In this document: piece by piece, positions 1 through 20,060 of the stretch
Layout of the letters: every line of letters begins with the position of its first letter
Position numbering within the stretch: position 1 is the stretch's first letter
Origin: a virus
DNA length: 26,656 bases
Strand: one strand, 5' to 3'
IMG/VR virus record: IMGVR_UViG_3300022745_000130
Span: 1 to 26,656 of that record
The notes under the pieces: generated by a model
The model's input: only the letters and a program-made list of their open reading frames with translations
Told to the model about the DNA's origin: nothing
The model's database searches: none
Made by a program: the position numbers and the translations under genes

Positions 1-240
1 GGCTGCTACGGGTCCACGCTCACCGGCGGCTACGGGGCCACGCTCACCGGCGGCAACCGGGCCACGCTCACCGGCGGCGACGGGGCCACGCTCACCGGCG
101 GCTACGGGGCCACGCTCACCGGCGGCAACCGGGCCACGCTCACCGGCGGCGACGGGGCCACGCTCACCGGCGGCAACTGGGCCACGCTCGCCGGCGGCGA
201 CGGGGCCACGCTCACCGGCGGCTACGGGGCCACGCTCGTG
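1..240 (+). repeat. 24-bp coding tandem repeat, ten units
   Basis: Ten in-frame 24-bp units start at 1, 25, 49, 73, 97, 121, 145, 169, 193 and 217. Most differ only at the third and fourth codons (TAC, AAC or GAC, then GGG, CGG or TGG). Units at 25-96 and 97-168 form a perfect 72-bp duplication of the order Y-N-D. The first unit (TGC and TCC) and the units at 169 and 217 are more diverged, as expected at array edges. Confidence 0.95.
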
Positions 241-437: not shown

Positions 438-785
438 CTAGGGCGCGTGCGTCGGGGGCGAGGCGTGGCTGATTGACTCGAATAGGCTGTTGACCGCGCC
501 GCCGCAGCTGCCGGCGAGCGCCAGCAGCGCGAGGATGCCGGCGAGCACACGACGCGGATCGGCGGGGGGCAGCGCCCCCCCGCTGCCATCCGGCTTTACC
601 CCCTGCGCCTTCATCAGCGCGTCGAGCTTCGTGCTCGTCGTCGCGTGCAACGTGGCGTTCTCGATGGCGGCAGCCGCCGTTTCCTTCCGGTGCGCGCGGA
701 GCTCGTCGGCCAACGCCTTGATGTCGCCTTCCTGGTTGTCGGCGTGGGCCTCGAGGGTAGCGACGCGCTCAAGAACGCTGGGCAT
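438..785 (-). CDS. Holin-like small membrane protein with coiled-coil N-terminus
   Basis: 115 residues from ATG at 785, preceded by GGAGG four bases upstream; a longer frame to 944 lacks this and would overlap the endolysin gene. Residues 1-60 are charged and heptad-like (LERVATLEAH, then IKALADELRAH), as in a coiled coil. Residues 61-78 are a Gly/Pro/Asp linker. Residues 79-98 (RVLAGILALLALAGSCGG) form one hydrophobic membrane span, followed by a short tail. A coiled-coil head with a C-terminal anchor is the layout of XhlA-type holin-associated proteins. It sits directly downstream of the endolysin, as holins often do. I infer a holin or holin partner for membrane permeabilisation; a spanin-like or structural membrane protein is the alternative. 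A promoter-like motif lies just upstream at 796-810. Confidence 0.6.
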   Translation of the reverse strand: MPSVLERVATLEAHADNQEGDIKALADELRAHRKETAAAAIENATLHATTSTKLDALMKAQGVKPDGSGGALPPADPRRVLAGILALLALAGSCGGAVNSLFESISHASPPTHAP

Positions 786-795
786 GGGGCCTCCG

Positions 796-810
796 TGCCC
801 CCACGCTACC
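796..810 (-). promoter_or_regulatory. 15-base promoter-like motif upstream of the holin-like gene
   Basis: On the minus strand this reads GGTAGCGTGGGGGCA. It matches the element upstream of the capsid gene (19094-19108) at 14 of 15 bases, in the same orientation. It lies in the 55-base gap between endolysin and holin-like genes and ends 10 bases before the ATG, so a transcript starting in its G-run would have a leader of under 20 bases that still carries the GGAGG. Whether a phage or a host polymerase, or a repressor, reads it is unknown. Confidence 0.4.
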
Positions 811-840
811 CCGGTGCTGAGTCCCGCACCAGTAGCGGAT

Positions 841-1377
841 TCACGGCCACCAGGGCGACCAGCCCAGGAACTCGCTGCCCACGCCGTCCCCATCGTGGGC
901 GCTGACGCAGGCCGATGGGTTCTGCCCGTGGTCGCTCGGTCCACCGAACGCGGAGCCCCACGTTCCCGACCGGGGCGCGGAGCGGTTGCCGTTGCCCGGC
1001 GGCACGAGCAGGTAGCCGACGTGGCTTGCGTGCGCGGGCTTGCCGTCCTTGGCGCGCGTGCCCCACCAGCCGATCACGCCGATGGGCGTGGCCGGGGTCG
1101 CGGCGCCAGAGGGCGATCCGGCGGCGCGGTACAGATCGTCCGCCGTGTGCATCGCCGCCGCCTTCGCGATGGCGAGGAGCTCCGGCCGAACGGGGAGGCC
1201 CGCCTCGGCGGCGAGCAGGAGGAACGCGAAGATGTGGCTCGAGCAGTCGAACGGCCCGGCCGGGTAGAACACCACGGGGTTGGGCCGGCCGCTGCCGAAC
1301 GAGTAGAGCGCCCCGAACGTCGCCGCGAAGAACACATGGATGGCGACGCGCGGGGTCATGCTCAGCAGCGCGCTCAC
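841..1377 (-). CDS. NlpC/P60-family endolysin (peptidoglycan endopeptidase)
   Basis: 178 residues. NlpC/P60 enzymes are Cys-His papain-fold peptidases that cut peptide stems of peptidoglycan, and phages use them as endolysins. The pattern is clear: ALYSFGSG followed by FDCSSH (catalytic Cys45), a helix with HTADDLYR near residues 77-84, a strand GVIGWWG near 100-106, then ASHVGYLL with His119 as the catalytic His. The third residue may lie near His150 but is not obvious. There is no signal peptide or separate wall-binding domain, so export would rely on a holin. The start is GTG at 1377, with GGGAG eight bases upstream and a GTGA overlap with the previous gene's stop; an internal ATG at 1359 lacks a well-spaced ribosome site. 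The last 30 residues (Gly/Trp-rich) are not recognised. Confidence 0.82.
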   Translation of the reverse strand: MSALLSMTPRVAIHVFFAATFGALYSFGSGRPNPVVFYPAGPFDCSSHIFAFLLLAAEAGLPVRPELLAIAKAAAMHTADDLYRAAGSPSGAATPATPIGVIGWWGTRAKDGKPAHASHVGYLLVPPGNGNRSAPRSGTWGSAFGGPSDHGQNPSACVSAHDGDGVGSEFLGWSPWWP

Positions 1378-2691: not shown

Positions 2692-3297
2692 CTACCTCCA
2701 CAACACGGTGATGTCGGTGGCCGCGCTCGTCACGATCGTGAGGCCGGTGCTGAACTTCGCCCCGATGGGCGCGCAGATGATGGGCGGGTCGCCGAGCAGC
2801 GCCGCGCCGAACGTGATGGTCCCGAGCTTCGTACCGCTCGCCGCCGTGTTGTCGTAGATCGTGATCACGCCGGCCGCCACGCCCTTGTTGATGATGAGCC
2901 CGGCGTACAACCCGGCGCCGGACTTCACGGTCGTGGTCGTCGCGGTCGTGATGTTCGTGGCCGAGAACTGCCCCTCGACCTTGAGCACGTCGTTGGACTG
3001 GTCCTCGCCGGCCAGCTTCGTGTCGAGGTTCGCGTTGACCGCGCCGCGGGTGGTGGCCTGGAGCGGCCCCCACTGACCTTCCGTGCGCGCCGTGGGCGTG
3101 GCGTTGTAGATGGCCCCGACGATGGCGTTGAGCCACCCGGTCAGCGTCGCCGTCGGCGCCGTGATGCCGGAGATCGCCGCCGCGAACGCGACGAGCAGGT
3201 AGCCAAGCGCGGTCATCTGCACGGGGCCGCGCTCGCCGTCGGCGCGCGTCGGCGGCGTCACGTTGTACTGGCCGTGAATCTCGCTGTTGCCCGCCAT
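2692..3297 (-). CDS. Beta-rich phage virion protein
   Basis: 201 residues, ATG at 3297 with GAGGTG four bases upstream. Residues 1-90 mix a polar N-terminus with a hydrophobic stretch (MTALGYLLVAFAAAISGITAPTATL, about 28-52) that may be a buried helix or membrane-active segment. Residues about 108-201 are strand-rich: VEGQFSATNITTATTTTVKS, AGLYAGLIINKG, GVITIYDNTAASGTKLGTITF, then GLTIVTSAATDITVLWR. This last part resembles small beta-sandwich virion proteins common in tailed phages, where a compact domain of this type often follows a fibre or base protein. Its place between the giant protein and the adhesin fits a tail or fibre-anchoring part. The structural call is moderately supported; the exact role is unknown. 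Confidence 0.75.
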   Translation of the reverse strand: MAGNSEIHGQYNVTPPTRADGERGPVQMTALGYLLVAFAAAISGITAPTATLTGWLNAIVGAIYNATPTARTEGQWGPLQATTRGAVNANLDTKLAGEDQSNDVLKVEGQFSATNITTATTTTVKSGAGLYAGLIINKGVAAGVITIYDNTAASGTKLGTITFGAALLGDPPIICAPIGAKFSTGLTIVTSAATDITVLWR

Positions 3298-3323
3298 CGA
3301 TCACCTCGCGCGCTCAGCCTACC

Positions 3324-6300
3324 TCAGCGGGGCTTGACCGTCGAGGCGTCGTTTCCGAGGTCCACGCCGTACTGCTTGTAGACGTTCGCGCGCTTCTTGC
3401 GCGCCTCGTCTGCCAGCCGGTTCTCGGTGGGCGTGAGCCGGACCTTTGCGCCCATGGCGCGGGCCGCCGCCGCCGCCTCGGATTCCCAGCTGGGCCGCAT
3501 CGAGGGCGCCACGATCGCGGCGGCGTTCGCCACCGACGTGGCCGGTCGACCGATGGAGCGGAACAACAGGCGCCACTTGTACTGAGCGTCCTTGAAACCC
3601 TGCTCGTCGGAGAACGTCTCCGTCTCGCCATCGTCGGCGCGCACGTAGTCCTCGCCGGCCACCCAACGGTACGGGCCGCGTTCGTCCCAGCCGGCGGCCG
3701 AGGTCGTGTCGATCCCCGGCGGCAGGTACCGCTTGCCGACGGCGAACGTGCGCTGCACGAACTCGCCGAGCATCGGCATCTGGAGCAGGTAATCGGGAAC
3801 CACGTTCTCCGAGTCCATGTCCACGTCCTGGCTGTTCGTGGGGTTGAACCCCAACGTGTCGCCCGCGGCGAGGAACGGCATACTGGTCATCTTCGCCGTG
3901 TCGTTGGCGAGCCCGCTCAACCGCTGGTTGTAGCCGAGCCGCCCGCCGGTCGCGAGCCCCGGTCCCGCAAGCGCGGCGTACGTGAAGAAGTCCATGAACT
4001 TCGCGGCGTACACCATGCCGCCGACGATGGAGCCGGTCGGCGCCCCGATCGTCTCGCCCTGGAAGTCGAGCCGGCCCTTGCCCTGGACCGTGATCGGACG
4101 CGGGGGCAGGTCGAGGAGGATGGACTTTTCCTCGTCCTCGGTGAGCAGGTCGCGCCGCGTCCCGCCGCCGAACAGGCGCGCGTGGTTGTAAGCGTAGATG
4201 CGGGCGATGTACGCGAGGCGCGACGGGTCCTCGAGCATGGCGCCGAGGATCGCCTTCTGGGTGTTGCGGAAGTACGTCCAGAAGGGGAACACCAATCGAA
4301 TGTACTTGCGCTCGATCGCCGAGCTCGCGGTGGGATCGAACAGCGAATCCCGCGCTGCGTGCGCCGCGTCGATCACGGCGTGCCCCTCGCGGAGCTTGTC
4401 GACGAACACGGCGGTGCGGACGCTCACGTCCAGCACGTTGCTCAACTCGACGAGGCGCTCGCGCCAATCGTTCAGCGAGACAACCTGCTTCCACAGCGGT
4501 TCATCCCACCGGCGCAGGTCGTCCACGATCTGCTGCGCGAGCTCGACGCGCGAGCTCGAGGCGTCCACGCCGTACTTGCGCGCCTCGCGCTCGACGGCAT
4601 CGAGCGTCCAGATCCGGCCCGCCTTGTCGCGCATGATCCGCTTCGCGTTGATGTCGGTCCAGCTGCCCGACCGGGGCACGGCGCCGCCGTCGGTGGGCTC
4701 CACCTCCACCTTGCCGCCGAACATGCGGCCGAGCGCCTCCTTCGCCTTGATCGTCGCGGGTGTCTCCGAGCGGTAGTACCCGAGCCGGCTCGACAGCGAG
4801 CGCGTGAACGGGTCGAACACCACCTGGGTGACCGCACGCCGCGCAGCGCCGATGCCCGTCGTCGCCGTGATGTTCTCCGCGATCGAGTAGACGTTGCCCA
4901 CCAAGTGCGGTAGGTTCGCGCCGCCGGGGCCGGCGGTCACGATCGCGCGCCACGTCTGGTACGCATCGGCAAGCCACGGTCCCACCTTGGGGATGGACCG
5001 GAGGCCGGTCGGGGCGCGCGCCGACTCCTGGCCGTACGACGCCGCGCGCGACAGCTCGTTGGCGAACGATTGCGGGAGCACGTACTTCGTGCCGTCCGTC
5101 CCCGTCATCGTGCGCAGGTCCTCGTATGCCCGCGGGCGCAAGCCAACCTGCGCCATGTACGCGCGCGCTTCCGAGTGGATGGCTTGGTTCGGGACCACCT
5201 GGATGCGCTGCCCGCTCTCGTTGATGTAGGAATCGTGGCCGAACAGCTCGGCCTTGACCGCACGCGCCACGTCGCCGCCCTTGCGCAGACCGATGCCGGC
5301 GGCGGCCAGATCGTCCACAGCGCGCGCGAGCGCCGCCTGGGCACGGAGGCGGCCGGCCAGCGTCACGCCGGCCTGCACCGGCTCCGTCATGTGGGCGGCT
5401 GTTCCGGGGTGCGCTTCCTCGAGCGCCTTCTTGAGCACCGGGCCGTCGAGCTCGCCGTGGACGAACACCTCGTCATACAGCGCGTGGATGCCCACCGCCT
5501 TGATCGCCTCGCCGATCCGACCGTTGACCTTGCCGATCTCGGGGGCCACGGACTTGAGCGCGTGCTCGACCATGCCGAGCATGTCCCCGCGGCGGCGGGT
5601 GTACCACTCCTCGACGGCGGCGTCGGCGATCTCGACGTGCGGGCTCTCCATGCGCGTCACGAGGTCGGACGGCATGATCGCGCGTTCCTTGTCCAAGAAC
5701 TCGCGGCGCATCACCTCCATGTCGCGGACGGTCGAGGGTTCGTACTCGATGAGCTTGCGCACCTTCTCGGCGACAGGACGGATCGATTCGCCGAGCACCG
5801 TGCCCACGGCTTGCGGCAACGTATCCGTCGCGCGGCGCACCTTGTTGAGATCGGCGTGGAGCTCCTGGCCGATGGACTTGAGGCGAGCGGTGCCGCGCTC
5901 CAACGCGGCCTGTGCGCCCGGCGAACGAAACGGCTTCTTGCTGTTGTCCAGGTACTCGTCGAGCGCGTCCGTCTGCCCGCGCACCAGACGCTCAGCTGTC
6001 GGGACTTCAGTTTTCGTGATCGCCCACTGGAGCAGCGCGTTGAAGCCGGCGTGATCCTTGAGCGCCGCGTCCTGCCAGGTGAGGCGGTCGGCGTACCGAC
6101 GGACCAGCCCATCGATCAGCTTGCGTTGCTGCTCCAGCGTCGGCTGCCCGTACTGGCCCACGTCGGCCTCGCGATGCACAGACACGCGGCGCGCGTCCAC
6201 GCCATCCTGCACACGGCCCGTTTCCGTGGGCGCCAGTGGCTTGGTCCCGAACGGCTCGAAGGGGTCGAGCTTGCCCGCCTCGGTCGCGCCGTACAGGACC

Positions 6301-9300
6301 GCGAAGCGCGCGGCCTCCGGCTTCGTCAGGTTGATCGGCGAGTCCTCGGTCACGCGCTCGAACGCTGCGTGCAGATCGACGCCCGCGCCGGTGAGATCCG
6401 CGCGCACCTCGCGCAAGATCCGATCGGCCTCGAGCGGCGTCACGAACACGTCGCCGCCCAGGTGGACGACGTACGATCCGCCCATCCGAGAGCGCATCAC
6501 CGAGCGCCGCGCCTCCGCGAGACGATCCGCGAGCCGCTCCTTGGCGCGACCGATGGTCTGCTCGCGCGGGCTGGCGTTCTCGTCGAACAGCGGAATGTCC
6601 TTGGCGGACTTGAGGTCGCGACCGAGGATCTGCTTGGCGAGATCATGCAGCGCCTCGGCGCCAGGGATGAGCACCATCTGGTGCTGGCCGCCGATCTCCT
6701 CGTCGGTCAGCGGCACGATCTCGTCGATGGCGTCGGCGACGTAGAACCCTTCGTGGGTGGACGTCGACCAGCCCGTGGTGCAGACGCCGCCCTTCACCGG
6801 ATCGGTCGTGCCGCGCAGCGCGCCGGTCAGCCCGTTGCCCCGCGGCATCGTACCTTCGAGATCCCACCACGCGACGCGGCGCCAGCTGCCATGCGCGACG
6901 ACCACGCCCTCGGGATGGCGATCGGTGGCCAGCCGTGTGAGCGCGTCCTCCAACGACAGGAGCTTGCTCGTAATCTGCCCGCGCGTCACCACCACGTACT
7001 TCTCGCCGGTGACGTCGGGAAGGTCGAGCTCGAGCTTGCGAACGCCAGGGTGATACGCGAGCCCGCCCTCGTCGTGCGTCGCCATATCCATGGCCGCATC
7101 AGCCGCCGTCACGGGCCGAACGTCGGGAAACAAGTCCATCATCAACGTGCGCGGGTTCGGCGGAAAGTGCGTGTGGAACCGACCGAGCGCGTCCTGTGCG
7201 ACCTTGCGCATGGCCGAGGGCAGGTACCCCTTGGCGTCGGGGTCCGCCTCGGCGCGAACGTCCGCGGGACCGACCGGGACGCCCGCGTCGATCTGCGCCT
7301 TCGTGCGCCGGGTCGGCTTGGGGATCGCCTCGGGGTCCTCGCCCTTCGCGATGGCTTCGAGCCGATCGCGGTAGTAGCGCGTCACGTCGCGCGTGCGGAA
7401 CCCGAACTTCGGGCGGTTCGGATCAAGCGCCGCGTCCGCGCCAGCGGGGATCAGCTTCGCCTGCGCGGCCATCACGGTTTCGTTGTACGCCAGCTTGTGG
7501 GCCAGCTGCTCGCCGAGCTCCTGCGCCGAGGCCCAAGCGTGGTGCTTCTTCTGCAAGAGCTCCAAGAACTTGAGCATCGCGTCATCGGCGTGGTTGAGGA
7601 TGAGCTCGGCATCGCCCGCCTGGATGATGCCGCGCTCGACCGCATCACGGATCGCCGCCTGGAGGTCGATCGACAACGGCTCGGTGCGCACGCCGCGCGA
7701 CTCCACCGGCTGCTGCGCGATCGTCTCGGCGAGATCCCGCAGCGGCTCCGGCGCCACGCCGGGCACCTCGTACCCGTCAACCGGGATGTCGGCGATGTCC
7801 TCCGGCGCCATCGTCGGGTTCGTGCGCCGGGGCGGCACGGTGTCCTCGATCTGCACCTCGGCCTTCACGGGTGGTTCCGCCGGCGGAACCGTGTCCTCGA
7901 TCTGCACCTCGGCCTTCGCCGGCTTCGCCGTCGGATTCTTGCGGCGTTCGATCTCGCGCTTGAGCCGCTCGATCTCGCTCAGATCGGCATCGCGCTTGGC
8001 AGCCAGGAGATCGTCACGCTCCCGCTTGAGGTCGACGAGCTCCTGCTCGGGTGGCGTGTCATTGAACTTGGCGGGGTCGAACTGCGACAGCTTGTCCGTT
8101 CGGTGGCCCATTTCGTCGATCGGGTACTCCATGCGCCCGCTGATCCGCCGATCGTTCGGGAACTGGTCGACGTCCCCCACGGCGATCTCGCGCCCAATCG
8201 GGGCGCCCACGATGCGGAACGGGGCGCCACCCACCCGGCCGCCTTCACCGATCCCGCCGTGGTACTCGGGCTTGTCGAGCTCAGCCCCCGCGATCGTGTC
8301 GAGGTCGTGGTGGAGGAACTCGCCGCGCATCGTGTACGCGACCTGGAGCTGCTGACGCTCGGCCGGCGCCAGCCCGTCGATGAAGTCGACGTCGTTGCCG
8401 GCGAGCTTGATCCGCGTGGCAGCGTCCACATGATCGAGCGCGTCGATCGCGCCGCCCTTCTGCATGAGCTCGTAGTAGAACCCGCGCGCGCCCACGGGGA
8501 TGCCCATGCCCTTGGGCGCCAGTGCCGCCGCCTCCTTCGCGCCATACGCCGCGCGCACCGTGGCACCCACAGGATGCGCGACCATGCCTTCCCAGCCGGC
8601 GAGGCTCGACACGATGTCGGCCACGCGCGCGAGATCCTGCACGCGCTTGGGCGCGTCCGCCGTGATCGCCGCCTCCGTGAACAGCGTGGTGCCGCGCATC
8701 GACGAGACGTCCTGCGAGAACGCCGCGATAAAGTCGCCGCTGATCTTGCCGATCGGCCCCGTCCACGTTCCCGTCCACCGCGGGCCGCCGATCACCTGCT
8801 CGGTCGCCGCATCGCTGACGATCGGCTTCTCGCCAACCGCCTTGCCGGCGGCATCGGGATCGGCACCCATGACGAACGCGCCCGCGCGCGCGATGGCCGG
8901 CTTCGCGTCATCGATCATGGCGCCGGTGGACGCGGAGATCCCCTGCGACGGACCCCCGAACCAGTCGTCCACGAGCGCGTGCGGTGCCGGGATCTCGGGC
9001 ACGCCGAGGTTCAGATCGAGCGCCGCACCGGCCGCGTTGACCGCCGGCCCCAGCTGGGCGGCCGCCGTAACGGGAATCGCCAACGCATCGGCGGCGAGGT
9101 CGAGCCCCGTGTGGACGCCCTCGAGCGGTGCTGTCTGAAGCTTGAGGTACGCGGAGACGTTGGGGTTGTGGACGGCGAGATCGGCCATCGTCATCGGCAC
9201 CTGACCGATGGAGGATGCCGCGCGCAGCGCGTACCCGATGGGCGTCTCGGTGGTCACCGGGTCGTTGCCGGGCAGAACCGTGGTGGGCCGGTCGATCGCC

Positions 9301-9926
9301 GCCGGGATGATCGGCGAGTTGGACACGTCGTGGAGCGCCTCACCAAGATGCTGCTCGATCGGATCGTGCATCGCGTCCCACGCGGCGCCCACGCTGTGCT
9401 CCTTGAGCAGCGAGGAACCCGCGTTGTACGCCATCGTCAACGGCGACGCGCTCCACACGGTCTTGGCAAGGTCGCCGGCCACGTCGAGGTTCTGCTCCGC
9501 GCGCAACGCCGCGACGTTCCCGATCTGCTTGGGATCGTCGGTGCCCACCGTGCGGTACAAGAGGTCGCGCTCGGCGCTCATCTTGTCGGGGTCGAGCCCG
9601 TGGACTTGCGGCAGCGCCGCGTCCGTCAGCGCCAGGATGGGATCGACCACGCCTTCCGGGGTGGGCCGCGCGCGAGGCAGCGGAACGCCGTCGATGTCGA
9701 GGAGCTTCTGGTGCGCCTGGAGCTCCGTCACCGCCGGGTTCTGCACCGGGTTGTCCGCGGTGATGTCGGCCTTGAGCTTCGCCTTGAGCTTGCCCTCGAG
9801 GTCGATCATGTCCAGGCCGGACGGCATCGGCGGCGCGAACCCGATGGGTCCGGCCGTTCCACCGGCGGCGATACGTTCGGCACGACGGCGCGCGAGCTCG
9901 TCGGCAAGTACATCGGCCACGATCAC
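3324..9926 (-). CDS. Giant (about 2200 aa) virion/polyvalent-type protein, probable ejected internal protein
   Basis: The largest gene, a quarter of the window. The GTG at 9926 makes a GTGA overlap with the previous stop; a GTG at 9920 with GAGG five bases upstream is an equally good start. Visible regions: an Ala/Asp-rich N-terminus; a charged coiled coil at about 635-668 (LKRERDDLLAAKRDADLSEI); a linker with a twice-repeated KAEVQIEDTVPP (about 670-698); a segment at about 965-1090 with VVVTRG, STS and QHQ that may be an ADP-ribosyltransferase-like fold; a long helical stretch; and a C-terminal part with LVFPFWTYFRN (about 1880-1890) and hydrophobic helices near 1960-2000. The FPFWTYFRN region resembles, from memory, helical domains at the ends of large phage 'polyvalent' proteins that travel with the genome. 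By position it replaces the large internal virion protein of T7-like phages. No lysozyme or transglycosylase motif was seen. Confidence 0.85.
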   Translation of the reverse strand: MIVADVLADELARRRAERIAAGGTAGPIGFAPPMPSGLDMIDLEGKLKAKLKADITADNPVQNPAVTELQAHQKLLDIDGVPLPRARPTPEGVVDPILALTDAALPQVHGLDPDKMSAERDLLYRTVGTDDPKQIGNVAALRAEQNLDVAGDLAKTVWSASPLTMAYNAGSSLLKEHSVGAAWDAMHDPIEQHLGEALHDVSNSPIIPAAIDRPTTVLPGNDPVTTETPIGYALRAASSIGQVPMTMADLAVHNPNVSAYLKLQTAPLEGVHTGLDLAADALAIPVTAAAQLGPAVNAAGAALDLNLGVPEIPAPHALVDDWFGGPSQGISASTGAMIDDAKPAIARAGAFVMGADPDAAGKAVGEKPIVSDAATEQVIGGPRWTGTWTGPIGKISGDFIAAFSQDVSSMRGTTLFTEAAITADAPKRVQDLARVADIVSSLAGWEGMVAHPVGATVRAAYGAKEAAALAPKGMGIPVGARGFYYELMQKGGAIDALDHVDAATRIKLAGNDVDFIDGLAPAERQQLQVAYTMRGEFLHHDLDTIAGAELDKPEYHGGIGEGGRVGGAPFRIVGAPIGREIAVGDVDQFPNDRRISGRMEYPIDEMGHRTDKLSQFDPAKFNDTPPEQELVDLKRERDDLLAAKRDADLSEIERLKREIERRKNPTAKPAKAEVQIEDTVPPAEPPVKAEVQIEDTVPPRRTNPTMAPEDIADIPVDGYEVPGVAPEPLRDLAETIAQQPVESRGVRTEPLSIDLQAAIRDAVERGIIQAGDAELILNHADDAMLKFLELLQKKHHAWASAQELGEQLAHKLAYNETVMAAQAKLIPAGADAALDPNRPKFGFRTRDVTRYYRDRLEAIAKGEDPEAIPKPTRRTKAQIDAGVPVGPADVRAEADPDAKGYLPSAMRKVAQDALGRFHTHFPPNPRTLMMDLFPDVRPVTAADAAMDMATHDEGGLAYHPGVRKLELDLPDVTGEKYVVVTRGQITSKLLSLEDALTRLATDRHPEGVVVAHGSWRRVAWWDLEGTMPRGNGLTGALRGTTDPVKGGVCTTGWSTSTHEGFYVADAIDEIVPLTDEEIGGQHQMVLIPGAEALHDLAKQILGRDLKSAKDIPLFDENASPREQTIGRAKERLADRLAEARRSVMRSRMGGSYVVHLGGDVFVTPLEADRILREVRADLTGAGVDLHAAFERVTEDSPINLTKPEAARFAVLYGATEAGKLDPFEPFGTKPLAPTETGRVQDGVDARRVSVHREADVGQYGQPTLEQQRKLIDGLVRRYADRLTWQDAALKDHAGFNALLQWAITKTEVPTAERLVRGQTDALDEYLDNSKKPFRSPGAQAALERGTARLKSIGQELHADLNKVRRATDTLPQAVGTVLGESIRPVAEKVRKLIEYEPSTVRDMEVMRREFLDKERAIMPSDLVTRMESPHVEIADAAVEEWYTRRRGDMLGMVEHALKSVAPEIGKVNGRIGEAIKAVGIHALYDEVFVHGELDGPVLKKALEEAHPGTAAHMTEPVQAGVTLAGRLRAQAALARAVDDLAAAGIGLRKGGDVARAVKAELFGHDSYINESGQRIQVVPNQAIHSEARAYMAQVGLRPRAYEDLRTMTGTDGTKYVLPQSFANELSRAASYGQESARAPTGLRSIPKVGPWLADAYQTWRAIVTAGPGGANLPHLVGNVYSIAENITATTGIGAARRAVTQVVFDPFTRSLSSRLGYYRSETPATIKAKEALGRMFGGKVEVEPTDGGAVPRSGSWTDINAKRIMRDKAGRIWTLDAVEREARKYGVDASSSRVELAQQIVDDLRRWDEPLWKQVVSLNDWRERLVELSNVLDVSVRTAVFVDKLREGHAVIDAAHAARDSLFDPTASSAIERKYIRLVFPFWTYFRNTQKAILGAMLEDPSRLAYIARIYAYNHARLFGGGTRRDLLTEDEEKSILLDLPPRPITVQGKGRLDFQGETIGAPTGSIVGGMVYAAKFMDFFTYAALAGPGLATGGRLGYNQRLSGLANDTAKMTSMPFLAAGDTLGFNPTNSQDVDMDSENVVPDYLLQMPMLGEFVQRTFAVGKRYLPPGIDTTSAAGWDERGPYRWVAGEDYVRADDGETETFSDEQGFKDAQYKWRLLFRSIGRPATSVANAAAIVAPSMRPSWESEAAAAARAMGAKVRLTPTENRLADEARKKRANVYKQYGVDLGNDASTVKPR
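7831..7917 (-). repeat. 36-bp direct repeat in the giant gene
   Basis: Copies at 7831-7866 and 7882-7917, 51 bp apart and in frame, share a 27-base identical core. They encode the twice-repeated dodecapeptide KAEVQIEDTVPP in an acidic, Pro-rich linker just after the coiled coil. The pattern suggests a recent in-frame duplication that lengthened an interdomain linker. Confidence 0.92.
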
Positions 9927-11071
9927 CTCGTGTAGTCGAGATTCCTCCGCTTCTCGTACTCCGTCAACGCGGCGTCGTCCTCATCTTCGGAGGTGGCCTT
10001 GCCGTCCGTGCGCATCACGTCCTCGTAGCGCGCAGCGCCGATCGGTCCCGTCGCGCGGGCGGCCTCGTCGAACATGGGGCCGATGCCGGCGAGATCCTTC
10101 TCGGCCTGCTGGCGCAGTTGCTCGCGGTAGCTGGCGCCGCCGTCGGTGGGCGAGCCGGAGATCGAACCGCCCAACGAGCGCGAACCGCCGACGTCGATGG
10201 AGTAGTCCGTGCCGCCGAACGTGGGCACCTGGACCTTTCCGCCACCACCAGCGCCGAGGTACCGATCGAACTCTTGCGGACGCGGGGGACCGATCGGGGC
10301 GCCGCTCTGCTCGATGCTGTTGCGCAGGTGCCCGATGTGCTCCTCGGGGATCGCCGACAGCGCGACCTTGGAACCATCCGGCCCGTTCGTGGAGATCGTC
10401 GCCGAGCGCACCTCTTGGAACAGGTCGGACACGGCGGCCTGCTTCGCGGCATCGCTGTCCGCGGTGGTCTGCAACGCCTTGGTCTGCTGAACGATGGTCG
10501 CCTCGAGGGCGTCCACCGCGTCCCCGTACGCGATCACGGCGGGGTCACCCGCCGGCTTGCCCTGCGCCGCGAGCGCCGCCGCCTGGACCTTCGAGAGCTC
10601 AGCGCGCACCGACGTCTGCGCCTGCGACAACAGCGCCTTACCCTGCGGCGTGTTCATCTGCGCGTTCTTGGTCACCTCGGCCTGCGCGTCGATGACGTGC
10701 CCCTTCACCTGGGCCGCCGCTCCGATGCTCGCCACCTTGGTGTCCGTCTCGGCCTTAAGCCCCGCCTCCCACGCCTTTTCCTGCAAAGCCGCCGAGTCGT
10801 TCGTCGCCTTGATGTGCGCGTCCTCGCGTTCGCCGAGCTGCTGCGCGAGCTTCACCTGTCTGTCAAGGAGCGCCGCCTTCGCCTGGGCCTGGGCCGCGGG
10901 ATCGAGCGCCTGCAAGTGCGCGGCGTACTGCGCGCGGGCGTACGGATCGACGGACCCGTAGTACCCGCTCCACCAGCTGTTGGCGAAGTTGAACCCGTTT
11001 TCCGTCGGGGTGTAGTACGTCGTGACGTTGGGCGCGTAGCGCCCGCGGTTCGTGGCGATGGGACCGGGCAT
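9923..11071 (-). CDS. Internal-virion-like protein, coiled-coil rich
   Basis: 382 residues, ATG at 11071 with AAGGAG five bases upstream. The N-terminal 45 residues are aromatic and Asn/Tyr-rich (NVTTYYTPTENGFNFANSWW). Residues about 46-220 are Ala/Gln/Lys-rich and strongly helical (AHLQALDPAAQAQAKAALLD and similar), consistent with an extended coiled coil. Residues about 255-310 are Gly/Ser-rich and strand-like. The C-terminus is acidic, then basic (SEDEDDAALTEYEKRRN). Its place between the nozzle block and the giant protein, with a stop overlapping the giant gene's start by four bases, matches the second internal core protein (gp15-like position) of T7-like phages. That assignment is positional; I see no sequence motif proving it. 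Confidence 0.78.
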   Translation of the reverse strand: MPGPIATNRGRYAPNVTTYYTPTENGFNFANSWWSGYYGSVDPYARAQYAAHLQALDPAAQAQAKAALLDRQVKLAQQLGEREDAHIKATNDSAALQEKAWEAGLKAETDTKVASIGAAAQVKGHVIDAQAEVTKNAQMNTPQGKALLSQAQTSVRAELSKVQAAALAAQGKPAGDPAVIAYGDAVDALEATIVQQTKALQTTADSDAAKQAAVSDLFQEVRSATISTNGPDGSKVALSAIPEEHIGHLRNSIEQSGAPIGPPRPQEFDRYLGAGGGGKVQVPTFGGTDYSIDVGGSRSLGGSISGSPTDGGASYREQLRQQAEKDLAGIGPMFDEAARATGPIGAARYEDVMRTDGKATSEDEDDAALTEYEKRRNLDYTR

Positions 11072-17452: not shown

Positions 17453-17468
17453 GGAGCCTCCAAAGCAG

Positions 17469-17503
17469 GACAGCCGCGCCGAGTGTACCCCGGCGCGGCT
17501 GTC
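17469..17503 (-). terminator. Perfect 12-bp hairpin between capsid block and tail block
   Basis: Arms 17469-17480 and 17492-17503 are exact reverse complements (GACAGCCGCGCC), with an 11-base loop. It lies in a 70-base gap after the small head protein gene and before the adaptor gene, whose ribosome site starts nine bases further on. On the minus strand the stem is followed by CTGCTTTGG, not a real U-tract, so it is not a classic intrinsic terminator. A partial terminator, an mRNA-stabilising 3' hairpin or a processing site all fit. Confidence 0.6.
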
Positions 17504-17522
17504 GTTGGCGAACCGTCAGCTG

Positions 17523-17969
17523 CTAGTTGCCGGCGCCGAACAGCACGACCGTGATGGAGCCGGAGGCCGTCGCGGTGAGCGCGCGGCCCACGGCGCGCTC
17601 GGTCGTGGCGAACGCCTTTTCGAGCGTGCCGGCCACGCCGGACTTCTGCACGAGATCACCGGCGGCGATGCCGGCTTCCGCGAGCGCCAGGGTCTTGGTC
17701 CCCTGGACCACGACCATGCCCCAGGTCAGGTTCGGGATGTCGACGTCGACCACGCCGATGAAGCCCGGCGAGTCCGCCGTGGTGTCCTTCTTGATCGCCT
17801 GACCGAGCGCGGCGGTCGCCGTGCTGATCGAGAGATCCTGCACGACGGCTGAGCCGGCGGCGATCTTGGCGCCGGACCCGTTGTAGTACAGCCGCGTGGC
17901 GCGGGCGAGGTCCTGCTGCTCGGCGGTCCAGTTGGACTCCATGAGCTGCGGTGCGGGAATGCGCGACAT
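17523..17969 (-). CDS. Small head protein, decoration-like
   Basis: 148 residues, ATG at 17969 with GGAGG four bases upstream. After a 25-residue polar N-terminus the protein is built of short strands and turns: YYNGSGAKIAAGSAVVQDLS, GVVDVDIPNLTWGMVVVQGT, AAGDLVQKSGVAGTLEKAF, and SGSITVVLFGAGN at the end. The repeated 'G-A/I-AAGD/S-V' phrasing and the small, glycine-rich beta fold resemble capsid decoration or DUF2190-type proteins that sit next to major capsid genes. It follows the capsid gene by nine bases. A role on the capsid surface is inferred from fold and position; a head-completion protein is the alternative. Confidence 0.72.
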   Translation of the reverse strand: MSRIPAPQLMESNWTAEQQDLARATRLYYNGSGAKIAAGSAVVQDLSISTATAALGQAIKKDTTADSPGFIGVVDVDIPNLTWGMVVVQGTKTLALAEAGIAAGDLVQKSGVAGTLEKAFATTERAVGRALTATASGSITVVLFGAGN

Positions 17970-17978
17970 GGCGTCCTC

Positions 17979-19031
17979 CTAGTACGTCTCGCCGCGGACG
18001 CCGAGGGCGCACGAGGAGAGGCTGTTGGTGTTGAGCTGGCCCATGTGCTGGAACAGCTTGGCGCTGGAGTCGTAGAACGGCGACAGCTCCTTGTACGGGC
18101 CGGACTTCATCACGAAGCCGGCGATCGGGGTCCACTTCACGCAGGAGAAGTCGATGAAGATGCACGACCACTTCTGCGTCGCGGTCGTCGCGCCGGCCTG
18201 GGGCAGATCGGAGTAGATCGTGCTGATCTTCCGGCCGCCGAACACCATGATGCGCTTGCCGCCGTCGAGGTCCTTCTCGCTGAGGTACCGCTCGTTGGCC
18301 TGGAGCGCGCGCTTGAGGTTCTGCACGAACCCGCGCGACCCGAAGATTTCGATCTGGTCGGGCTCCATCGAGAGGGCTTCCACCGCGGTCTGCGCAGCGA
18401 ACAGCTGCGTCAAACCGTAGGTTCCGAACGCGTTCTGGAAGTCCATCGACTGGTTCTGCCAGTTGACGAGCGCCGAGTACGTGCTCTTGGACAGGCCCTC
18501 GATGGTGTTGCCCTGGGAGCCGTACGCCTCCTCCTCGAGCCAGCCGTCGGTGAAGTCCGTGCCGTTGAGCGTCTCGCAGTCCGCCCACGCCTGGAGGTCG
18601 CCGGCCGAGCCGCCGTCGAGCAGGACCTTCTGCCACTCCATCTTGAGGGCGTACTCGGTGTCCTCCTCGCGGTCCTTGGCGAGCTTGACGAGCGCGGCCG
18701 GGCCGCCGTTGATGCGCTCCTCGTGGCCGCTGATCACGACCGCGCGCGCGACGTCGCACCAGTCGACGCGAGCGCCCTGGAGCGTGGGGAACACGGTCAG
18801 GTTGTTGGCCTCGTAGCCCGTGCTGATGCGGATCGTCGAGGAGTGACGGGTCGTGCGCACCGGGATGCGCATTCCGTCACCGCCCTGCTTCGCCTCGCCC
18901 ATGCCCTTGGACATGAGCGCGTCGATGAACGGGACGGGCCTGTCGAGCCAGGACTTGACGCGCGTTTCGCGCCAAGCCTCCAGCGTCGAGTTGAGATAAT
19001 CGGCGGTCGTCGACCGGGAAGCGGCAGCCAT
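17979..19031 (-). CDS. Major capsid protein
   Basis: 350 residues, ATG at 19031 with AGAGGG five bases upstream. Composition and order suit an HK97-fold coat protein: a helical N-arm (TADYLNSTLEAWRETRVKSW), a conserved-looking PFIDALMSKG, an E-loop-like RIPVRTTRHSSTIRISTGYE, a spine-helix region (ALVKLAKDREEDTEYALKME), and a strand-rich C-terminal half with IEIFGSRGFVQNLKRAL and RIMVFGGRKISTIY. There is no cleavable pro-domain; a separate scaffold gene lies upstream. It is followed by a decoration-like gene and preceded by an 84-base gap with a promoter-like motif, which would allow the high expression expected of a coat protein. The fold assignment is by pattern and place in the gene order. 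Confidence 0.88.
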   Translation of the reverse strand: MAAASRSTTADYLNSTLEAWRETRVKSWLDRPVPFIDALMSKGMGEAKQGGDGMRIPVRTTRHSSTIRISTGYEANNLTVFPTLQGARVDWCDVARAVVISGHEERINGGPAALVKLAKDREEDTEYALKMEWQKVLLDGGSAGDLQAWADCETLNGTDFTDGWLEEEAYGSQGNTIEGLSKSTYSALVNWQNQSMDFQNAFGTYGLTQLFAAQTAVEALSMEPDQIEIFGSRGFVQNLKRALQANERYLSEKDLDGGKRIMVFGGRKISTIYSDLPQAGATTATQKWSCIFIDFSCVKWTPIAGFVMKSGPYKELSPFYDSSAKLFQHMGQLNTNSLSSCALGVRGETY

Positions 19032-19093: not shown

Positions 19094-19108
19094 TGCCCCT
19101 ACGCTACC
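19094..19108 (-). promoter_or_regulatory. 15-base promoter-like motif upstream of the capsid gene
   Basis: On the minus strand this reads GGTAGCGTAGGGGCA. It lies in the 84-base scaffold-capsid gap, ending 62 bases before the capsid ATG. It matches 796-810 at 14 of 15 bases, same strand. A TTGCAC lies exactly 17 bases upstream of its TAGCGT, so it could be a weak sigma-70-type -35/-10 pair. The second copy lacks a good -35, which leaves a phage polymerase or regulator site as the alternative. Confidence 0.45.
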
Positions 19109-19115
19109 GCGGCCG

Positions 19116-20060
19116 TTACCCGCGTGCAAGCGCCCGTTCGAGATACGCCTTGCGTACCTCGGGGTTCGCCTGCAAGAACTCCGCGATTTTCACGGGATCG
19201 CCGCGGATCGCCTTCGGGATGGGCGATTCGTTCGTGTCCGCCGGTGGAGTTTCCTTTGCGGTGTCGCCGCGCGCGGTGCGCTTGCTCCCCGTCGCGTGAC
19301 GGATCGCACGCACCGTGTGGTACGCCGCCTCGACGGGGGTGCCGGGATGGTCCTTCCGGTACGCCTTGATGTCCTCGCGGAACGAGTCGAAGTCCGGGTT
19401 CCGCTCGGCGAACGCCTTGATCTCGTCGAGACGGCGAGACCTCTGCTGCTCCTCGAGGATCTTCTTGCCTTCGTTCTCGAGCTCCTCGACGCCTTCCGTC
19501 AGTCCCTTGGCGAAGTTGTTGAGGTACTCGTGGGCCGCCAGCTGCGCGAGCGTGCGCTGGCCTTCCGGCGAGTACGGGTCCACGCCCTTGGGATCGACGT
19601 TCGGCTTGGGCGCCTTCTGCGCGGCGTTCTCCACCAGGAGCTTGAGCCGGGCTGACTGCGCGCGGATCGACTCCTCGCGCTTGAGCACCTGCTCCGCGCG
19701 CGCGCGGAACGCCTCGCGCTCCTCGGCGAGAATCCGGTTCTTGCGGTCCCCGGCGTGGCGCATCCCGAACACGAGGTTGCGGACCACGGGGTCCTTCATC
19801 GCCTCCTCGATCGCCTTTCTCGGGACGCGGAACTCCACCTTCGAGAGCTCCTTGTACTCAGGGAAGTGCTCGGCGAACTTCTCGCCGAACATATCCACCG
19901 CGTCGATCCCGTCCTCAATCACATCGTGACCGGGGGCGAGCTTCGACGACGGGGGCGGCGCCACAGCGGGCGCGGGTGCCGTCGCGGGATCTGCGGCCGG
20001 TGCAGAGGCAGGGGCCTCGGGGGCGGCCGGATCATCGAGCAGGTCGGTTTCGGGGTCCAA
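19116..20060 (-). CDS. Probable scaffolding protein
   Basis: 314 residues, start TTG at 20060 with GGAG five bases upstream; no other start has a site. Scaffolds guide coat-protein assembly inside the procapsid and then leave. The features fit: a disordered acidic Ala/Pro N-terminus (residues 1-45), a predominantly helical, highly charged centre with long heptad stretches (NRILAEEREAFRARAEQVLK and GVEELENEGKKILEEQQRSR), and a C-terminal helical segment rich in Arg/Lys (EVRKAYLERALARG) of the type that binds coat protein. It lies immediately upstream of the major capsid gene, the usual place. No protease motif was seen, so removal would be by exit or host proteolysis. The TTG start may limit its translation. 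Confidence 0.75.
   Translation of the reverse strand: MDPETDLLDDPAAPEAPASAPAADPATAPAPAVAPPPSSKLAPGHDVIEDGIDAVDMFGEKFAEHFPEYKELSKVEFRVPRKAIEEAMKDPVVRNLVFGMRHAGDRKNRILAEEREAFRARAEQVLKREESIRAQSARLKLLVENAAQKAPKPNVDPKGVDPYSPEGQRTLAQLAAHEYLNNFAKGLTEGVEELENEGKKILEEQQRSRRLDEIKAFAERNPDFDSFREDIKAYRKDHPGTPVEAAYHTVRAIRHATGSKRTARGDTAKETPPADTNESPIPKAIRGDPVKIAEFLQANPEVRKAYLERALARG

Follow-up and report, generated by a model that had tools for sequence, protein, structure and literature searches.

The question raised by this locus is whether a 15-nucleotide element directly ahead of a holin-like gene is a promoter and, if so, which polymerase would read it. The window, that is, the whole stretch of DNA that was analysed, is an entire virus record from IMG/VR (26,656 bases, 69% G+C) and is probably a fragment. 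All listed genes are carried on the minus strand, with the exception of a cut gene at 1-369, and they follow the order large terminase (phrog_2), portal, scaffold, capsid (phrog_9953), virion genes and, at the low-coordinate end, two presumed lysis genes, with portal and scaffold being assigned by position. The gaps on this strand sum to 333 of the 26,656 nt, and three of those in the gene list, including the 55-nt gap on the holin side, reach at least 50 nt. Two further features of the record are nine to ten head-to-tail 24-nt repeats at 1-240 of the plus strand, which encode a repeat protein truncated by the record end, and a 2,200-aa ORF (3324-9926), located where an internal virion protein would lie, for which Pfam and PHROG gave no match and which has similarly long counterparts in some relatives.

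The element, GGTAGCGTGGGGGCA (810-796, minus strand), is composed of GG, a -10 box, a G-rich discriminator and a predicted start, A796. As the initial annotation had noted, it lies on the minus strand and ends 10 bases ahead of the ATG at 785. It is found in the 55-nt gap that separates the stop of the endolysin-like ORF (841-1377, minus strand, 178 aa) from the ATG of the holin-like ORF (438-785, minus strand, 115 aa), and a Shine-Dalgarno-like GGAGG, read from the sequence at 794-790 of the same strand, stands 4 nt ahead of this ATG. The holin-like frame is open upstream as far as a GTG at 944, so that the location of the 15-mer in a gap depends on the ATG with its GGAGG. With regard to the two gene names, they agree with the position of the genes, with the look of motifs and with a hydropathy profile that places one hydrophobic segment near the C-terminus of the holin-like protein. 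Neither product matched a Pfam family above the cut-off, a PHROG or a phage homologue, and both labels are therefore tentative guesses based on position, motif look and hydropathy. For the endolysin-like protein, a PDB search stayed at chance level and an alignment-free AlphaFold model was too poor to use (mean pLDDT 38).

The 15-mer has a single near-copy in the 26.7-kb record, GGTAGCGTAGGGGCA (19108-19094, minus strand; predicted start A19094), which is identical to it at 14 of 15 positions and is located in the 84-nt gap upstream of the major capsid gene (17979-19031, minus strand; phrog_9953, E 1.9e-13). In 300 dinucleotide shuffles of the window, nothing came within one mismatch of the capsid copy, and only 2 of 400 gap shuffles produced a 15-mer common at 14/15 to any two minus-strand gaps. 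At three mismatches the count is near chance, with 3 matches found, 1.27 expected and 15 of 100 shuffles reaching 3. A chance origin of the core common to the capsid and holin sites appears unlikely. A degenerate form of the pattern was present in 43 viral_contigs stretches, one copy in each, none of which matched a protein of the window or had a TTG at 16-18 nt spacing, and no copies of a 19-nt form were found.

Close kin of the window were not confirmed by single-protein searches. No relative came from a phage tblastn in which the queries were the proteins of the capsid, the portal position and the endolysin-like and holin-like genes, and a genome_contigs scan returned 429 pattern matches with zero relatives confirmed. 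Relatives were reached instead through terminase relatives from named phages, a profile, the locus L041 and capsid alignments that yielded 15 and then 68 loci, with a best-segment identity to the window of 27-39%. These loci and the window make up 69 sequences, 67 with a usable start and 65 with at least 120 nt upstream, and the 65 were grouped by upstream sequence into 24 clusters, one member of each being tested.

The capsid copy fits a sigma-70-type pattern, as its -10 hexamer TAGCGT (19101-19106, minus strand), the core of the 15-mer, is preceded at 17-nt spacing by the -35 hexamer TTGCAC (19124-19129, minus strand). TTGNNN-16..18-TANNNT occurs twice in the window when both strands are counted, and one of the two matches is this site. 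Within 200 nt of the capsid start, TTGNNN-17-TANNNT was found in 17 of the 24 clusters (window included) compared with 0.64 expected from shuffles, although the 17 counts are not independent, since the clusters are kin by descent and, in many cases, the -35 or the site runs into the end of the scaffold gene. Spacings of 16-18 nt gave 18 of 24 against 2.0 expected, the extra cluster, L169, having the pattern at another place. The exact 17-nt form is absent from seven clusters (L104, L147, L148, L153, L157, L169 and L170), and near-forms can be seen by eye in L147, L157, L169 and L170. What the relatives keep ahead of the capsid gene is the -35 and the -10, not the 15-mer itself. The capsid gene thus has a conserved sigma-70-type promoter pattern in this clade. 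A stricter E. coli-type consensus scan, run on the window except for 3001-9999, reported no promoter at the capsid or the holin site.

Downstream of this promoter lies what would be a short transcription unit, started by TTGCAC-17-TAGCGT, composed of the capsid gene and the 148-aa gene that follows it (17523-17969, minus strand), and closed by a strong hairpin. The latter is a terminator-like stem of 15 bp (17503-17469, minus strand; z -6.3, with none of 200 shuffles equally stable), which has a poor T tail and was not listed by a consensus terminator scan. The best hairpin within 100 nt past the counterpart of the 148-aa gene surpassed 40 shuffles by at least 2 SD in 20 of 22 clusters, window included, the exceptions being L098 and L132, while two clusters could not be tested. 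A strong hairpin of this kind is thus seen at 17453-17522 and at the corresponding place in these relatives. Promoter, leader hairpins, capsid gene, next gene and terminator-like hairpin are common to the capsid cassette of the relatives, as judged from their sequences.

The leader hairpins are small, with one or two of them in 21 of the 24 clusters and 38 units in total. Each unit combines an outer stem of 3 bp with an inner CC..GG stem; a C, as one or two bases, is left unpaired, as is an AYAM on the 3' side. All three outer pairs form in 22 units, by six pair types, and 97 of 114 possible outer-stem pairs are present, compared with a mean of 85.7 and a maximum of 94 in 2000 re-optimised shuffles; a simpler null gives a lower and more flattering expectation, and the stems were counted by a script, not by a covariance model. 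RNAalifold found no structure on a MAFFT alignment of the leaders, and Rfam returned nothing at gathering scores for 11 sources, nor up to E 10 for one leader. A covarying leader hairpin that acts as a new cis-acting RNA is possible. Examples are L140:9887-9936 and L098:7112-7161; the window is not among the clusters with these hairpins, having at most a degenerate unit.

The holin side was scored with a weight matrix built from the capsid promoters of the 16 non-window clusters. The capsid site of the window came out at the top with 17.0, the next score anywhere being 7.9, and the holin site reached 6.6, which ranks seventh on both strands and fourth of the 26,622 minus-strand positions. Its -10 hexamer, TAGCGT (803-808, minus strand), ranks first on this strand when the -10 part is scored alone; its -35 hexamer, TGGTGC (826-831, minus strand), has the 17-nt spacing and is poor, agreeing with TTGACA at 2 of 6 positions. 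Three of the four best minus-strand sites are located in gaps. The second best, at 3316-3344 (TCGACG-17-TAGGCT, 7.6), combines a candidate -10 (3316-3321, minus strand) with a weak -35 in the gap ahead of the gene at 2692-3297. The identity of the two copies runs on beyond the -10 into GGGGCA, which the relatives lack. Furthermore, seven gaps in the lysis regions of three relatives (G032, G035 and G043) held no comparable promoter, the best score being 5.8, and the presence of a holin copy may therefore be specific to this phage; among these gaps, only one adjoins a firm lysis gene, the Amidase_2 gene of G043.

As a prediction, a promoter ahead of the holin-like gene therefore has support from the near-copy of the capsid promoter core and from the matrix rank. 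The element described in the initial annotation as promoter-like can be kept in this sense, redefined as a sigma-70-type core. The start, which had been placed inside the G-run, moves just past it: about 7 bases after the -10 lies A796, corresponding to A19094 at the capsid site, and the G-run is better read as a discriminator. Most likely, transcription would begin at A796 and give an 11-nt leader with GGAGG, ACGGAGGCCCC-AUG. An mRNA that could begin just ahead of GGAGG and be separate from the upstream gene hence stands as a prediction. No clear terminator was found between the 841-1377 and 438-785 ORFs, and a start at A796 would add holin-like mRNA to the read-through from upstream. The suggestion that the element acts as a lysis-timing device is not supported, given the poor -35, the lack of a clear terminator between the genes, the lysis-region gaps checked in three relatives, which hold no such site, and the tentative names of both genes.

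In our view, the 15-mer is probably a promoter core of the sigma-70 type, from the -10 box to +1, for the host polymerase, and it repeats the core that lies ahead of the capsid gene. We infer that the host polymerase would use either site, and a near-copy of the capsid switch ahead of the holin-like gene suggests that a single host enzyme may activate both genes. On the holin side, the shared -10 and discriminator follow a poor -35, which points to a weak or activator-aided promoter. The presence of GGAGG and an ATG at a workable distance downstream counts for this reading, and the identity in GGGGCA, which exceeds the needs of sigma-70, the poor -35 and the silence of the E. coli-type scan count against it.

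A promoter for a phage-encoded T7-type polymerase, with the start in the G-run and the polymerase gene outside the fragment, was considered as some terminase relatives carry PF00940. Among 28 records tested around the terminase, which comprised the window, ten named phages and 17 IMG/VR records that the terminase search had supplied, this family was found in four, CRP-7 and three from IMG/VR; the matches show that the search works. The shared core past the -10 and the position before the capsid gene would also suit such promoters, and the record is a fragment. Against this, PF00940 was detected in 0 of 38 capsid-clade records (the window, L041 and 36 others, which correspond to 37 of the 68 relative loci and the window), and this alternative was demoted. 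The silence of the 36 other records does not amount to proof of absence, and many records are fragments. Six of the searched capsid-clade records exceed 30 kb, and one, G018, has replication genes, encoding a VapE-like helicase, an ERF recombinase and a Holliday-junction resolvase. Moreover, several copies of a consensus of about 20 nt would be expected across the late region, against two in 26.7 kb, and at the capsid copy a -35 stands at the exact spacing, with relatives that retain the -35 and -10 rather than the 15-mer. A T7-type promoter is thus improbable, no such polymerase having come up in the window and 37 capsid-clade records. The holin-side match could also be a coincidence or a decayed, functionless copy of a genuine capsid promoter, in keeping with the poor -35 and with the lysis-region gaps, in which the three relatives checked show nothing comparable; additionally, the 15-mer was picked by the initial annotation after a reading of the whole window, and matches at three mismatches are near chance. 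We regard this as rather unlikely, as the match was reached by none of the 300 window shuffles and 2 of the 400 gap shuffles, and as it falls in a gap, on the coding strand and 10 nt ahead of a start codon with GGAGG.

A phage regulator could instead bind at the two copies, or they could form an RNA element common to the capsid and holin-like genes, with the resemblance to a -10 being secondary. The identity into GGGGCA, absent from relatives, would fit, as would the GGGGC..GCCCC that follows both copies. A dyad, CTGGTGC-N8-GCACCGG (832-811), spans the -35 to about -15 of the predicted holin promoter, thereby overlapping the -35, and might serve as an operator or form a hairpin at the 3' end of an mRNA. 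A 45-nt fold including the dyad was somewhat stable (z -2.4, with 5 of 200 shuffles as good), but longer folds at both sites were unremarkable (z -0.8 to -1.4), and the GGGGC..GCCCC stem-loop was set aside as a candidate. The dyad is not seen by eye at the capsid site, where the copy falls on the -10 of the promoter pattern that relatives keep, and a regulator site or RNA element of this kind seems as improbable as the T7-type promoter. Additionally, the 3' half of the 15-mer is able to pair with the start region, and a ribosome site masked in read-through RNA and freed by the promoter was considered and rejected: mean accessibility was 0.53 in the read-through RNA and 0.52 from a start 11 nt upstream of the ATG, where the AUG opens and GGAGG closes with no net gain.

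A more tentative proposal, which we consider possible though not probable, is that one core (-14 to +1) before both genes ties the supply of coat protein to the lysis clock, with GGGGCA as a common control point. The GGGGCA start region would then be recognised by a late regulator or be a discriminator sensitive to the growth state, and the holin-like gene would be expressed in step with the capsid gene, and more weakly owing to its poor -35.

With the sigma-70-type reading, the analysis provides a sequence-predicted promoter map for uncultivated phages of a clade in which few genes are annotated. The set of capsid promoters can serve as a matrix for seeking late promoters in related metagenomic phages and, should the holin copy be active, a single -35 box could tune the timing of lysis. 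The use of the same host enzyme for both genes would be a useful and fairly ordinary form of viral gene control.

Among known systems, gene e of T4, which encodes lysozyme, has a late promoter close to its start and a ribosome site that is masked in read-through RNA. The present locus resembles it in having a lysis-type gene, a predicted start close to the ribosome site and an upstream arm that can base-pair with the start region, and differs in that folding gave no support (accessibility 0.53 versus 0.52). Phage promoters of the sigma-70 type, with TTGNNN-17-TANNNT, are known in high-GC hosts; the capsid site is like them in its -35, 17-nt spacing and -10 and the holin site in its -10, whereas the poor -35 of the latter and the discriminator shared by both sites set them apart. 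In T7, the phi10 promoter and the Tphi terminator flank the capsid gene. LUZ100 has a local promoter for the phage polymerase before the capsid gene and a terminator right after it (PMC10134795). Unlike in T7 and LUZ100, the promoter pattern seen here is of the sigma-70 type, and the clade records searched yielded no T7-type polymerase; in common with both, the capsid gene has a predicted promoter of its own and a hairpin directly downstream.
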